NCBI GenBank assembly: GCA_027016315.1
Contig: JALWAP010000102.1
Span: 1 to 34,815 of the forward strand
Direction of reading: 5' to 3'
DNA from: Anaerolineae bacterium
GTDB lineage: Bacteria; Chloroflexota; Anaerolineae; S016-19
Length of the DNA stretch: 34,815 nucleotides
The notes under the pieces were generated by a model, which saw only the letters and a program-made list of their open reading frames with translations, was not told the DNA's origin and did not search any database. This document shows positions 18,935-32,692 of the stretch, in pieces. Positions within the stretch are counted from its first letter, which is position 1; the number at the start of each line of letters is the position of its first letter. Position numbers and translations under genes: made by a program.

Positions 18935-18953
18935 AACGTTTATGCTCTCCAGG

Positions 18954-19026
18954 CGCCCCTGGCAGGACTCGAACCTGCGGCACGCGGTTTAGGAAACCGC
19001 TGCTCTGTCCTCTGAGCTACAGGGGC
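18954..19026 (-). tRNA. tRNA-Arg (anticodon CCT)
   Basis: A 73-base cloverleaf: acceptor GCCCCTG/CAGGGGC, D-loop AGCTCAGAGGACAGAGC, anticodon arm GCGGTTTCCTAAACCGC with CCT, and T arm GCAGGTTCGAGTCCTGC. The CCA end is not encoded. It reads AGG codons. Confidence 0.95.
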
Positions 19027-19136: not shown

Positions 19137-19140
19137 TAGG

Positions 19141-19542
19141 TGGAGATGGCGGGAATCGAACCCGCGTCCGGAGAGTTCGGCCTTGGACGTCTACAAGCTT
19201 AGCCACCGCTTTCACTCTCGCCCGGGGTCCCCCGGTGGCAAGGTACCGTCCGGGCAAAGCCGATTTAGCTCCACAGTCCTATCGGCGTCAGGCTGCTGCC
19301 CCCTGCAGTCTCTGACGGCACTCCCGGGAGCTGCAGGGCACCTCCCGAGGTACCGAGACCGCCTTCAGGCGGTCGTTTTTCTCCCCTACTTACGCAGCCA
19401 GCGAAGCAGGCTGAGCCGCGAAGCGGGGGAAAGTAAAAGCGTTAGCTTTGGCACTTATTTGGTTGCCCCTGTTTTACGAGGTAGAGGCACCTCGGCTTGC
19501 AGTCCTCAGCCTCAACGCTCCCCGTCGAAGCCTGTCATCCCC
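19141..19542 (-). ncRNA. ssrA: tmRNA (ssrA)
   Basis: One-piece tmRNA of about 402 bases that rescues stalled ribosomes and tags their products. The 5' end GGGGATGACAGGCTTCGACG and the 3' tRNA-like end GACGCGGGTTCGATTCCCGC followed by CATCTCCA are diagnostic; GGGGATG pairs with CATCTCC with one G-U. The reading frame (19452-19390) encodes a 20-residue tag beginning AKANAFTF and ending PASLAA, then TAA. Many tags are nearer 10-15 residues. CCA is not encoded. It has its own consensus promoter and terminator. Confidence 0.95.
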
Positions 19543-27272: not shown

Positions 27273-29825
27273 TCAATACATCTTCTTGAATACGATCTTG
27301 AAGGAATTGTGGAACAGCGTATTCCCGCCGCCTCCCTGAGGGCACATGGCCTCGTCGGTGAAGCCAGATGTAAGCCCCGTAGCGATCTGCCCTATCGGAT
27401 GGACGCCATCGAGGGAGACGAACACGTCATAAGTAGCACCTTTCCACATGATAAAATCGAGCTTACCCGGCCCCTTGGCGCCAGTCCTCTTCTTATCCAG
27501 TATCCTCCAGAGCTGCCCGTGAGGCGTCTGGATCACCCAAATTCCGTTGATCGGGTTGCCGTTAGCGTCTTCCACGGTGACGTAGATGTTGTGCTTGCCC
27601 CTGTTCTCGCAGGGGGTCAGCCTGCGCTTTTCGACAACCACCACCTGCTGCGCCGGAGTAGGCGTCGGCTTTGGTGTAGGAGTAGCCTTCGGTGCCCTCC
27701 TGACGGCCACCGGGCGCGGAGTAGGCGTGCTGGTGGGCGTCGGCGTAGGCGTGGACGTTGGAGTCGGCGTAGGTGTGGGCGTATTGGTAGGCACGGGGGT
27801 GTCCGTCGGCAACGGCGTGAACGTTGGCGTGGGAGAAGCCGCTTTTGCGACATACTCGCTTGCCGGAACGACCGCTCCGTTTCTGGTATGGCCGGATTTA
27901 GCTGCAAACACCGTGGACTTCAGTCCAAATGGCAAGGCCACCCCAAGCAACCAAAGCAGCAGCAATGTGGTTGCGGCCAGTTCGACCTTCGTAATTGGCT
28001 TCAAAGAGCCGAACCAGCGGGAGAGCTCCTCCAGCTTCTCTTTCGCACCTGCCATCGCTCCAGGCCCGGCAGCAGGTGCTTTCCTGACAGCGGGCGCAGG
28101 AGTAACGGCAGGAGCAGCAGCTCGCGCAGCCGCGGGAGCAGCAGCCGGTACCGCAGCCGCCGCCCTGGTGCGCCTCGCAGCTGGCGCGGCCGCCATAGAT
28201 GAGCCTGCAAGGACGGAACTGGCTAAAGCCACCCTATCCGCCATAGCCCGGCTAAGTGTGAAAGCAAGCAACGGATGTCTCAAGGCAAGAGCCTCGAGTG
28301 TTTCGGCGTAAATCGACCACCCCTCGATGTCGTCCAGCGCTTTTGCAGAGAAGCTGCGTATAGGCATTCGCCGCAGCGCCGATTCACCGAGGAATTCCCC
28401 AGGGCGAACGGTGTAGAAAAGCTTCTCCTGGCCTTTGATGTTCTTGAGCAAGGCCACGCGCCCCTTCCCAAGGAAATAAACTATGTCGGCCGGCTCGTTC
28501 TCCCTGAACAGATACTCCCCGGAGACAAACCGCACTGGCGTGAGCTCATCGGCTATGTCCTGCAACTCTTCTTTCGGGAGAGATCGGAATATGGAAAGGT
28601 TCTTTATCTGGCCTTCTATGTGCCACTCCTTGACACCCTTGGCCTGCTCCTGAATCCGCCTGAGGATGTCGACCGCCAGTTCTGGACGCTCTTCCAGAAC
28701 CTTATCGAGCTTCTCACGCGTCAGCACGAACAGTGTGGCATTTTCGTCCACGACCGCTGTCGACGCGTAGCCACCACCGGAGAAGACCTGAGCGCTTCCA
28801 AGGAATCCGCCGGGCCCAACGGTGGCGACCACATTACCATCCGCGGAAAGCAAGTTCACACTTCCACTGGAAACGTAATAAAGCGCGTTGCCAAGCTCCC
28901 CTTCCTTGAACAACTCTGTGCCCTTAGTGTACAGCTTCGCCACCATCGCACCGGCCAGGGCTTCCAGGTCGTCATCGGAAGCCCCTGCAAGGACAGGAAG
29001 ATCACCCAATGCTTCCTTTACATCGGCGATTTCGTCTTCAGAAAGAGGAAGCTCCATGGTTTGCGCCAAGGCGTCTTTGATGGAAGGATAGGAATCCATC
29101 AGGCTTTGGAGCTTCTCACCAGGCATCTTCCAGAGCGTGGAGTCTTCCCTTGCGACAACGCTTCCACGGCAAGGCTTGTTGGTGAGAAACGATTCGACCC
29201 CGACCAACGCACCTTCAGAAAGAGTGCTCAAGCTTCTCCCGTCGGGCGACTTCAGTTCTAACTCACCCTCGGCCACCACGTAGACCCCACCGGAGAACTT
29301 GCCTTCGCGCACGATAGCTTCACCGGCTTTGAGTTCCTCCGGCTCCAGTGCGCCTACTATGGCTTTCAAAGTCTCTTCCGGAAGCGAGGAGAACGCCTTC
29401 ACCCCTTTCAACACCTTCAGAAGATATCCCGTCAGGGGCGAAATGGCCTTGCCGTAAGCTTTGCTGAGCTTGATCCCAATCGAAGGGTTTTCATCTACCA
29501 GCTTTTCAACTCCTTCCACCGTCAGAGAAAGGGCTTCCACATCGGAGCCAGCTACAGCACCGGTGGTGTACTTCCGATTCTTAAATACCGAAGATTCCCC
29601 CAACAGGCTCCCTGCGCCCAGGCTCGCAAGTACGTTGCCTTCTGCCCCAACGATGTGAACCCAGCCGCGCAGAATCACGTACATCGCGCGCGGGTCCTCC
29701 CCTTGTTGGAACAGACTCGACCCTTTCTCGAATTTCTCTTCGCTCATGCTGGCAGCGATTTTCTCAAGCTCTTCATCGCTCATGCTGGAGAAAATCGGGA
29801 CCTGCCTCAATTTCTCGATGTCCAT
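27273..29825 (-). CDS. Membrane protein with four cyclic-nucleotide-binding-like domains and an exported C-terminal domain
   Basis: 850 residues. Four cNMP-fold domains lie at about 1-130, 140-260, 270-400 and 410-537, each preceded by a P.F.S(L/M)-type helix. An Ala/Pro-rich linker, one membrane segment (about 610-632), a Thr-Pro linker of about 60 residues and a C-terminal domain (about 738-850, starting C.NRGKHNIYVTVEDANGNPI) follow. Phosphate-binding Glu and Arg are kept best in domain 4 (FLGES...IRSFSA) and are missing in domain 3. It likely senses a small nucleotide or acts as a scaffold inside, with the last domain outside. GGAGGT lies upstream of the ATG. The preceding lipoprotein gene encodes a related C-terminal domain, so the two probably work together. 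Confidence 0.88.
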   Translation of the reverse strand: MDIEKLRQVPIFSSMSDEELEKIAASMSEEKFEKGSSLFQQGEDPRAMYVILRGWVHIVGAEGNVLASLGAGSLLGESSVFKNRKYTTGAVAGSDVEALSLTVEGVEKLVDENPSIGIKLSKAYGKAISPLTGYLLKVLKGVKAFSSLPEETLKAIVGALEPEELKAGEAIVREGKFSGGVYVVAEGELELKSPDGRSLSTLSEGALVGVESFLTNKPCRGSVVAREDSTLWKMPGEKLQSLMDSYPSIKDALAQTMELPLSEDEIADVKEALGDLPVLAGASDDDLEALAGAMVAKLYTKGTELFKEGELGNALYYVSSGSVNLLSADGNVVATVGPGGFLGSAQVFSGGGYASTAVVDENATLFVLTREKLDKVLEERPELAVDILRRIQEQAKGVKEWHIEGQIKNLSIFRSLPKEELQDIADELTPVRFVSGEYLFRENEPADIVYFLGKGRVALLKNIKGQEKLFYTVRPGEFLGESALRRMPIRSFSAKALDDIEGWSIYAETLEALALRHPLLAFTLSRAMADRVALASSVLAGSSMAAAPAARRTRAAAAVPAAAPAAARAAAPAVTPAPAVRKAPAAGPGAMAGAKEKLEELSRWFGSLKPITKVELAATTLLLLWLLGVALPFGLKSTVFAAKSGHTRNGAVVPASEYVAKAASPTPTFTPLPTDTPVPTNTPTPTPTPTSTPTPTPTSTPTPRPVAVRRAPKATPTPKPTPTPAQQVVVVEKRRLTPCENRGKHNIYVTVEDANGNPINGIWVIQTPHGQLWRILDKKRTGAKGPGKLDFIMWKGATYDVFVSLDGVHPIGQIATGLTSGFTDEAMCPQGGGGNTLFHNSFKIVFKKMY

Positions 29826-29871
29826 ATTTCGACCTCCATTTGAAATAGCAGTCTCTCTTGCACTTTACGCT

Positions 29872-31101
29872 TTACCACTGACGCTGAAACACCACGCTCC
29901 AAGAATAATGCCCTCTACAAAGATGATTCGTGTCAATTAAGTGCTGACATGTCACCGGATCAGTGCAATAATGAGCTGCTATCAGGTCCTGGATCGGGAT
30001 TCGATCGTCTCTCACGTCCAGATTTCTAGTTACCTGACTGGTAAAGGTATGACCGCTTACATCCCCCACTACCCTCAGCTTGTCACCGTGGCTAAACAAA
30101 GAAAACACCAGCCTACCAGGCCCTTTGGTGCCCGAAACCCCTCTGGTCTTGGCGTAAACACGCTCCACAACGACTCCGTTGAGTGGGTTGCCGTTCCTGT
30201 CGACCACCGTAACATAAATCTGGTGCTTGTACCCACATCTGACCGAACCATTATCCACACTGCCCCCATTCTCTTCAACCGTCCACAACCTTTGTTCGGT
30301 AACCACGAAATCCACAGATGGGGTAGGAGTGGCCGCAGGGGTTGGGGTGAACGTGGGCTCAGGAGTAGGCGGAATCTCCGATACTTTCGCCACGCTATCC
30401 ACCGGGCCTTGCGTGCCAACCACTCCCTCGAACACCCAACCGGTTTCCCCGCTGGCAGTACGGATTCGTAGCCACTTTCCGCCAGGCCCGCGTCCCGTGA
30501 CCAAAGCCTGCTCGCCCGGCTTGAGATGCCCTACCGGTGGGTACACTGTGCCTGGCCCCATCCGCACGTTAGTCCAGTCCTTCGCTACTACGACCGGCTC
30601 CTCCGGGGTCGGAGTCCATGTAGGCGAAGGAGTCAATGTAGGCGTATCCGTGGGGGCCGGCGCGAGCGTTGGAGTGGCAGGTTCCACAGTGGGAACCGGC
30701 GTGGGAGTTTCGTACACAAGGGCAACGAGATCATCGCCATGATAACCCAGGTCGACGGCCAACCGTGCCAGTGCTTGCGTGTTCTCTGAAGACGCCCCTT
30801 CGCGCCTCTCGTATTCTACAGCCAACTCGGCTACGTAACTGGAAGGATCGGAAATCCCGAGAGCTTTGAGCTCCTGACGCGCTTTCTCCAGGTTGCCTTC
30901 CGATTGGTACTCGGAGGCGATCCGGAGGACACCGGCTTTCGTATCAGGCGTGGGAGTGTCAGGGGCCCTCCGCCCTCCAGCACAGCCACTCAACGCCAGC
31001 GCCACAGAAAGCAAAAGCGCCAGCCACAACGCACCCCTTTCCAAAATCCTTCCGTCACCAACCTTATGTATCCCGGCCCCAGTCTCTTCGGAAAGAGTCA
31101 C
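29872..31101 (-). CDS. Lipoprotein with SH3b domain and a C-terminal domain shared with the cNMP protein
   Basis: 409 residues from the chosen GTG (31101; GAGAGG just upstream). The longer frame to 31233 runs into tRNA-Leu and is rejected. The lipobox is LALSGC. A helical, TPR-like part follows (LRIASEYQSEGNLEKARQEL), then a Thr-Pro linker, a bacterial SH3 domain (WTNVRMGPGTVYPPVG ... WLRIRTASGETGWV), a second Thr-Pro linker, and a last domain with C-GYKHQIYVTVVDRNGNPLNG that matches the end of the next gene's product. Probably an envelope protein binding cell-wall or surface polymer. It is the first gene of a two-gene operon, 46 bases from the cNMP gene. TATACT at 31176-31171 may be its -10 box. 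Confidence 0.82.
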   Translation of the reverse strand: MTLSEETGAGIHKVGDGRILERGALWLALLLSVALALSGCAGGRRAPDTPTPDTKAGVLRIASEYQSEGNLEKARQELKALGISDPSSYVAELAVEYERREGASSENTQALARLAVDLGYHGDDLVALVYETPTPVPTVEPATPTLAPAPTDTPTLTPSPTWTPTPEEPVVVAKDWTNVRMGPGTVYPPVGHLKPGEQALVTGRGPGGKWLRIRTASGETGWVFEGVVGTQGPVDSVAKVSEIPPTPEPTFTPTPAATPTPSVDFVVTEQRLWTVEENGGSVDNGSVRCGYKHQIYVTVVDRNGNPLNGVVVERVYAKTRGVSGTKGPGRLVFSLFSHGDKLRVVGDVSGHTFTSQVTRNLDVRDDRIPIQDLIAAHYCTDPVTCQHLIDTNHLCRGHYSWSVVFQRQW

Positions 31102-31190
31102 TTGGTCCTCTCGCTTTTGACGCGTGACACGGAAACCGTTTTCTCCTCCTGGACAACCTTGCTGACACAAAGTATAATCCTTGCGATAGA

Positions 31191-31276
31191 TGCCGAAGGT
31201 GGGACTCGAACCCACACGGGCCTTAATGCCCAACGGTTTTTGAGACCGTCGCGTCTACCTGTTCCGCCACTTCGGC
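31191..31276 (-). tRNA. tRNA-Leu (anticodon CAA)
   Basis: 86 bases, class II with a long variable arm: acceptor GCCGAAG/CTTCGGC, anticodon arm ACGGTCTCAAAAACCGT with CAA, variable arm TGGGCATTAAGGCCC, T arm GTGGGTTCGAGTCCCAC. Discriminator A; CCA not encoded. Reads UUG codons. Confidence 0.95.
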
Positions 31277-31289
31277 AAAGCCAGGGCAA

Positions 31290-31318
31290 ATTATAACCAA
31301 GAAGAAGTCCAGAGTCAA
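31290..31318 (-). promoter_or_regulatory. Promoter of tRNA-Leu
   Basis: Leftward TTGACT (31318-31313), 17 bases, TATAAT (31295-31290), 13 bases before the tRNA. Confidence 0.82.
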
Positions 31319-31398: not shown

Positions 31399-31986
31399 GT
31401 GCGCAGAGGTGCAGACTTGGAAGATCAGGCCTGGGTCGATGAGGCGCTAAAGGGCAACGTACAGTCGTTCAATAGGCTCGTCCTGAAGTACCAGGACACA
31501 GCCTATAACGTCGCGTACAGGATACTCTCCGATCCAGACGAGGCGGCCGATGCCGTGCAGGATAGCTTCATCAAAGCGTTCAAGCGACTTGGACAACTGC
31601 ACGGAGGGAGCTTCAAAGCCTGGCTTCTTAGAATCGTAACCAACAGCTGCTATGACAGACTCCGAAAGAAAAAGCGGCATCCAACCGTATCGATGGATGC
31701 CTCCCAGGAAGACGGTGAACCATTCCACCAGTGGCCTTCACACGCTCCAAGCCCGGAGGAAATGGCACTCCGGCACGAAACGGAACAAATCATTCAGAGG
31801 GGCATCTCCCAGCTCCCCCCGGAACAAAGGACCGTGCTCGTGCTGTCGGACATTGAAGGCCTGTCATACAAGGAAATTGCCGAAGTGACGCAGGTGCCGA
31901 TAGGCACCGTTCGCTCGAGGCTGGCGAGAGCCAGGGCCAGGATGAGAAAGTATCTGCAAGAGGAGGGGATTTTCCCAGGAAAGTGA
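31399..31986 (+). CDS. ECF-type RNA polymerase sigma factor
   Basis: 195 residues. Region 2 is at about 20-90 (FNRLVLKYQDTAYNVAYRIL, DAVQDSFIKAFKRL, WLLRIVTNSCYDRLRKKKR) and region 4 at about 135-190 (LPPEQRTVLVLSDIEGLSYK, IAEVTQVPIGTVRSRLARAR). This is the standard two-domain ECF layout. It directs RNA polymerase to a stress or envelope regulon. The GTG at 31399 is used; a TTG at 31417 with AGAGGTG upstream is an alternative. It is followed directly by a membrane protein gene of anti-sigma type, which would hold it inactive until a signal arrives. Confidence 0.93.
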   Translation: MRRGADLEDQAWVDEALKGNVQSFNRLVLKYQDTAYNVAYRILSDPDEAADAVQDSFIKAFKRLGQLHGGSFKAWLLRIVTNSCYDRLRKKKRHPTVSMDASQEDGEPFHQWPSHAPSPEEMALRHETEQIIQRGISQLPPEQRTVLVLSDIEGLSYKEIAEVTQVPIGTVRSRLARARARMRKYLQEEGIFPGK

Positions 31987-32038
31987 TGGAACTTTGCCGA
32001 GGCGCCGGCGTTTAAATAGTAGGGAGGAATTGAAAAGG

Positions 32039-32692
32039 GTGACGGATATCAGGAAAGAGCACGAAGACACATCGATAGAGGAACTGCTATCGGCGTATAT
32101 AGATGGCGAACTCGCTCCGCAGGAGAGAGGGCTCGTAGAAAGCCTGCTGCAGAGCGATGAAAGCGCGCCTGTCGTGCTCGAGGAGATCAAGCACACGAAG
32201 GAATTGCTGGCTTCACTCCCGAGGAAGCGTGCGCCACGGCCGTTCACTCTTTCGGAGGAAGAAAAGAAGCCAGGATTCTTCAAAAAGATATCGTGGAAAC
32301 TGGTGTTTTCGGCCGTCGCAGCCATCATCGTAGCCGTGATAGGCCTCGGGGTGTTTATGTCGATGAACGGCGGCATGTCGGCCTCACCAGCACCAACTCA
32401 GCTCGCGGCAAAGCCGACACACCCGCCCGCGCCCCTGCCCACTCGAGAGGCCAGGGCGCTTGCGGCGCCCGCCCCAGCAGGCAAAGGCCCTCTGCGCCTT
32501 TCGCCAAAAGGGACGGCGGAGAAACCGTCTCCTGGCATAGAAGTCAACCTTGCAGCCTCCCCGACGCCGACCTTCCACGAGGAAAGCCCTCAGGGAAAAA
32601 GAAAAACCATCCCCTACTGGATACCGGGGATGGCTGCGCTCGCGGTGGCTGCAGCAGCCATCGCTGTGTGGATGAAACGACGAAACAGCTAA
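32039..32692 (+). CDS. Putative anti-sigma factor, membrane protein
   Basis: 217 residues from the GTG at 32039; a TTG at 32030 or 31994 would lengthen it. The N-terminal part (IEELLSAYIDGELAPQERGL, VESLLQSDESAPVVLEEI) is the usual anti-sigma helical domain but lacks the HxxxCxxC zinc motif. A membrane segment (about 93-115) is followed by a Pro/Ala/Thr stalk and a second hydrophobic segment near the C-terminus (about 190-208). It starts within 60 bases of the sigma gene, which supports the pairing. The start is uncertain because GGGAGG is 11 bases from the GTG and 2 from the TTG. Confidence 0.75.
   Translation: MTDIRKEHEDTSIEELLSAYIDGELAPQERGLVESLLQSDESAPVVLEEIKHTKELLASLPRKRAPRPFTLSEEEKKPGFFKKISWKLVFSAVAAIIVAVIGLGVFMSMNGGMSASPAPTQLAAKPTHPPAPLPTREARALAAPAPAGKGPLRLSPKGTAEKPSPGIEVNLAASPTPTFHEESPQGKRKTIPYWIPGMAALAVAAAAIAVWMKRRNS

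Follow-up and report, generated by a model that had tools for sequence, protein, structure and literature searches.

Cyclic nucleotide-type membrane proteins of Anaerolineae form a conserved pair with anchored proteins that carry the same predicted outer domain

Introduction

Cyclic nucleotide-binding domains of bacteria are known mainly from transcription regulators, enzymes, channels and defence effectors. The PF00027 superfamily includes CRP, the regulatory subunits of PKA and PKG, and SthK. Control of an outer process by an intracellular nucleotide is known from the LapD-LapG system, an example of c-di-GMP inside-out signalling (PMC3032553, PMC3032545).

A locus of an Anaerolineae bacterium (contig JALWAP010000102.1, GCA_027016315.1; genome of 2.45 Mb, 92% complete) invites comparison with these systems. 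The window, i.e. the whole stretch of DNA analysed (34,815 nt), contains adjacent genes for a protein with four cNMP-type domains (P1) and a predicted lipoprotein (P2). P1 belongs to the same superfamily as CRP, the PKA and PKG regulatory subunits and SthK, but no helix-turn-helix, kinase or channel domain was detected and its four tandem copies are combined with an outer domain. If a signalling reading is right, P1 would resemble LapD in that one membrane protein senses a nucleotide through a cytoplasmic receptor module and acts on a partner outside through its outer output domain. LapD differs in having c-di-GMP modules of another fold and in recruiting a protease, whereas P1 has tandem cNMP folds and a beta-sandwich in common with its partner; the likeness is functional and no homology is claimed. 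The fold predicted for the outer domain suggests the transthyretin-like, CarboxypepD_reg and Big_1 sandwiches, from which the domain is set apart by scores below the Pfam cut-offs, an extra helical insert and conserved Cys residues. P2 has SH3_3 and a lipobox in common with SH3b envelope lipoproteins, although SH3b is absent from some partner proteins in other genomes. We propose, with a probability of about 0.5, that P1 and P2 form one membrane assembly of Anaerolineae with an extension to nucleotide control.

Results and Discussion

Architecture of P1 and P2

The features of the locus are listed in Table 1. PF00027 matched four stretches of P1 (whole-protein E 6e-72, 238 bits, cut-off 27.5), which places the protein in the cNMP-binding superfamily by the curated cut-off. 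A single hydrophobic segment was found. No Pfam match to a helix-turn-helix following the cNMP fold was observed in P1, and NCBIfam CRP models scored far under their cut-off.

Table 1. Features of the P1-P2 locus, in positions of the window
Feature	Position	Strand	Remarks
Terminator-like hairpin 3' of P1	27174..27207	-	15-pair stem, T-rich tail
P1	27273..29825	-	850 aa: cNMP-binding domains 1-4, then a single transmembrane helix, a Thr-Pro linker and the outer beta-sandwich (C1)
P1 outer domain C1	27276..27647	-	Two Cys invariant in six relatives
P1 Thr-Pro linker	27654..27842	-	Residues 662-724
P1 hydrophobic segment	27903..27995	-	Residues 611-641; Kyte-Doolittle scan; Lys at N-terminal (inner) side
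P1 cNMP-binding domain 4	28278..28535	-	Glu and Arg retained in window copy: GESALRRMPIRS
P1 cNMP-binding domain 3	28689..28934	-	Arg lost in window copy, present in 28/33 proteins
P1 cNMP-binding domain 2	29088..29339	-	Ligand Arg in none of the aligned relatives
P1 cNMP-binding domain 1	29487..29738	-	PF00027 place, motif table; Tyr at ligand Arg position
P2, predicted lipoprotein	29872..31101	-	409 aa (GTG start) or 390 aa (TTG 31044 start); helical domain, SH3b, outer domain C2
P2 outer domain C2	29875..30336	-	Beta-sandwich, four largely conserved Cys
P2 SH3b domain (SH3_3)	30424..30570	-	Pfam match
P2 helical (TPR-like) domain	30712..30948	-	AlphaFold2 model, helices 33-111, pLDDT mostly >90
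P2 lipobox Cys (LSGC)	30982..30984	-	By eye and hydropathy
tRNA-Leu(CAA)	31189..31277	-	Directly upstream of P2, same strand; syntenic marker
Sigma-70-like promoter before tRNA-Leu	31290..31318	-	TTGACT-17-TATAAT; consensus scan
ECF sigma factor	31399..31986	+	Divergent; conserved neighbour, occurs without the pair too
Probable membrane anti-sigma factor	31994..32692	+	Divergent neighbour

P2 is placed 46 bases upstream of P1 on the same strand and has two candidate starts, GTG 31101 and TTG 31044. The latter is the more likely, as it is preceded by a purine-rich stretch and yields a more usual lipoprotein signal (predicted as MERGALWLALLLSVALALSGC, ending LSGC). A longer TTG open reading frame overlaps the tRNA-Leu gene and was rejected as the true start. 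The SH3_3 match (E 1.6e-9, 38.3 bits, cut-off 27) and the lipobox signal together predict a lipoprotein with an SH3b domain. A phage origin of P2 was rejected since no phage match was present. Across the partner proteins, of which up to three are encoded in tandem per locus, the constant parts are the anchor, the helical domain and the sandwich. Many have a membrane helix instead of lipidation, so that a lipid-anchored SH3b partner, as initially described, holds for P2 of the window but not for all of its relatives.

The shared outer domain

A preliminary description of this DNA had noticed that the two neighbouring products end in a related domain. The reading frames are as placed there, and the homology of C1 and C2 was borne out by blastp on a stretch lacking the linkers (E 5e-9) and by profile-profile comparison (E 6.6e-26, probability 99.7). 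AlphaFold2, run with 20 relatives, confidently predicted a beta-sandwich into which a helical segment is inserted (pLDDT 95). The nearest PDB folds in Foldseek were dioxygenase and carboxypeptidase-regulatory (i.e. transthyretin-like) sandwiches, with no match at E <= 1e-3, and a PDB sequence search produced nothing of note; assignment of the domain to a known family was rejected on these grounds. All Pfam scores were below their cut-offs, the best being to Big_1 (20.5 bits for C1 and 15.6 bits for C2, cut-off 34.9) with a weak match to CarboxypepD_reg. In the P2-type domains two Cys are invariant and a further two are frequent; the six aligned P1-type domains have two invariant Cys. This conservation is compatible with an oxidised outer location, and the analysis supports a predicted outer position of the domain in both proteins. 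P1 proteins of other families bear a second variant of the sandwich, and all three variants are homologous.

The domain is not a common, unpaired module of the window's genome: a whole-genome profile search found two copies, those of P1 and P2. Its restriction to the pair does not extend to all other genomes, where stand-alone lipoproteins and some large proteins contain relatives of the domain. The stand-alone proteins (L060, L062, L084, L087, L088 and L089) consist of an anchor, a Thr-Pro linker and the sandwich, and are not encoded near any cNMP gene. The large proteins (L179:1830-5554 and L180:3-2981), of ~1000 aa, contain CarboxypepD_reg repeats and a distant sandwich copy, preceded by a large N-terminal region without a Pfam match.

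A proposed membrane assembly

In the proposed explanation, P1 and P2 would be two subunits of a single membrane assembly. P1 would place its four cNMP-type domains in the cytoplasm and, by way of one membrane helix and the Thr-Pro linker, its sandwich outside. The one to three P2-type proteins of each locus would be anchored outside by lipid or an N-terminal helix and present the same sandwich at their ends. Binding of the sandwiches to each other, or to a common outer ligand, would enable P1 to tie surface proteins to the cytoplasm. With less confidence, we suggest that in most relatives a cyclic nucleotide binds mainly in domain 3 (and also in domains 1 and 4), altering the cytoplasmic array and thereby the outer assembly; in the window's genome, this control looks decayed, with a ligand signature left only in domain 4. 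Assembly of P1 with P2 is moderately well supported, and the predicted shared outer domain is the likely point of contact. A class-wide inside-out switch, in which tandem cNMP domains would control a surface complex by sandwich-sandwich pairing with anchored partners, is put forward tentatively, with the odds against it. If true, cyclic-nucleotide domains would also directly link the cytoplasm to the cell surface. Anaerolineae are abundant and almost uncultured. Little is known about the biology of their envelope, to which the pair offers a defined and testable entry point.

Nucleotide-binding signatures

The ligand signature of the phosphate-binding cassette, a Glu followed nine residues on by an Arg, was scored on a profile alignment of 33 proteins. 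The ligand Arg was retained by 28, 19 and 18 proteins in domains 3, 1 and 4, respectively, and by none in domain 2; both residues were present in 27, 19, 18 and 0 proteins for the same domains. This selective retention speaks for genuine ligand sites among P1 proteins. Both the window copy and its same-genus relative (L034) have the canonical signature in domain 4 only. No match to a class III cyclase (PF00211) was found in the window's genome, which is 92% complete, and the enzyme was missing from L034 too. Among 60 genomes of the class Anaerolineae (30 P1-positive and 30 P1-negative), class III cyclases were present in 21 of 30 with P1 and 21 of 30 without (P = 1). This result counts against signalling, and cAMP sensing as a general function of P1 was rejected because of it. 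GGDEF proteins are present, which makes c-di-GMP a possible candidate ligand. Nucleotide control appears plausible, even likely, in relatives and doubtful in the window copy. The four sensors of the preliminary description stand as folds; their function was overstated for the window's genome, in which three ligand Arg residues are lost and a class III cyclase was not detected.

These observations also bear on the possibility that the pair is a ligand-free scaffold, with the cNMP folds serving as protein-docking modules and the pair merely tethering a cytoplasmic complex to the envelope. Such a scaffold would fit the degenerate state of three of the four pockets in the window copy, the absence of class III cyclases from this genome and its same-genus relative, and their lack of association with P1 across the 60 genomes. 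A pure scaffold, however, has no need of the asymmetry between domain 3, with Glu and Arg in most proteins, and domain 2, where the Arg never occurs, and other cyclases or cyclic dinucleotides are possible; GGDEF genes are present. We consider the scaffold conceivable but rather doubtful.

Co-occurrence and linked loss

Profiling of the shared domain across genomes, proposed in the preliminary description as a check, gave strong hits in P1-positive genomes only. In the 60-genome sample, a strong P2-type domain (i.e. C2 at E<1e-15) was present in 23 of 30 P1-positive and 0 of 30 P1-negative genomes, with a Fisher value of 1.7e-10 that overstates the number of independent events because the sampled genomes are related. 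These 23 genomes, all P1-positive, span 17 families. P2-type genes stood immediately before P1 on the same strand, as one to three tandem copies, in 23 of the 28 P1-positive genomes that were assessable (i.e. with both flanks of P1 readable). A scan of 84,980 species genomes for a single motif of the domain, a search that may overlook distant relatives, yielded 51 loci, whose titles all name Anaerolineae, Anaerolineales, Caldilineae or Chloroflexota. At E <= 1e-40, at least two genomes of a phylum-wide sample matched (five candidates scored per genome). Architecture, outer-domain homology, co-occurrence and gene order are shown by computation, supporting P1 and P2 as a conserved pair. Pfam, NCBIfam and the literature searched yielded no account of the membrane pair; it is apparently undescribed and belongs to one bacterial class. 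Of the inside-outside signalling or scaffold pair first envisaged, the conserved and undescribed pairing survives, but signalling is weakened for the window's genome by the same sensor and cyclase findings. Counting against the assembly reading, P1 and P2-type genes lie at separate places in two genomes (G006 and G015), and two loci (L066 and L074) have P2-type genes without P1 adjoining.

The same-genus relative L034 (684-3496) carries both genes in the corresponding position, with tRNA-Leu on one side and phosphofructokinase on the other. Its P2 stops after SH3b and its P1 after the membrane helix, such that both outer domains are missing and the rest is retained; a hidden C2 remnant was excluded as the gap between the two genes is only ~70 bases. 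Three further genomes (G017, G038 and G052) have a P1 lacking C1 and no adjoining partner gene, whereas in G033 a P1 lacking C1 is found with retained C2 partners, counting against the assembly reading. Joint loss, drawn from few independent events in MAG-like assemblies of many contigs, is the best evidence for mutual dependence of the outer domains.

An alternative without any need for contact is that a class-wide surface sandwich, perhaps glycan-binding, was copied from an older P2-type gene onto P1, leaving duplicates as neighbours. This agrees with the P2-type genes found at the tRNA-Leu site without P1 and with the sandwiches of stand-alone lipoproteins and, distantly, of the CarboxypepD_reg-repeat proteins. 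Simple duplication is nevertheless unlikely in view of the confinement of strong C2 domains to P1-positive genomes among the 60 tested, the lack of both outer domains in L034 and the usual lack of a C2 partner beside C1-less P1 genes.

Gene neighbourhood

No terminator-like site was found between tRNA-Leu and P2 in a consensus scan. Together with the promoter-like site before the tRNA gene and the hairpin after P1, all of them consensus matches, this suggests that tRNA-Leu, P2 and P1 can be co-transcribed in the window's genome. tRNA-Leu(CAA) lay immediately upstream of P2 in nearly all loci scanned, with the flanking sigma factor in 29 of 32 loci and the anti-sigma factor in 28 of 32. P1-negative genomes mostly retain the sigma and tRNA-Leu neighbours, an arrangement that is class-wide with or without the pair and that indicates an old fixed site rather than proof of regulation. 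The neighbourhood was accordingly rejected as proof of control of the pair by the ECF sigma factor, and the link is probably positional.

A locus that stays at tRNA-Leu in different families does not resemble a mobile defence island, and a Pycsar-like anti-phage effector (i.e. a membrane nucleotide-binder triggered by a neighbouring cyclase) is highly improbable for P1 despite matches to PADLOC Pycsar models (best E 3e-26), as these are confined to the cNMP-binding domains, no cyclase (PF00211) was found in the 92% complete genome, and the TIR or pore effectors of Pycsar differ from a single helix with an outer domain.

Returning to the membrane assembly of P1 and P2, the tRNA-Leu site of some P1-negative genomes carries genes for P2-type proteins whose sandwich is divergent, which counts against it. 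The simplest history would be that the anchored sandwich protein is the older, and that P1 came about when the sandwich was acquired by a cNMP array already joined to a membrane helix.

Five loci (L153, L155, L157, L159 and L167) have, at the tRNA-Leu site, P2-type membrane proteins whose sandwich is divergent and no adjoining cNMP gene. Elsewhere in the window, a tmRNA (19138-19542) and a tRNA-Arg(CCT) (18952-19026) are both encoded on the minus strand.
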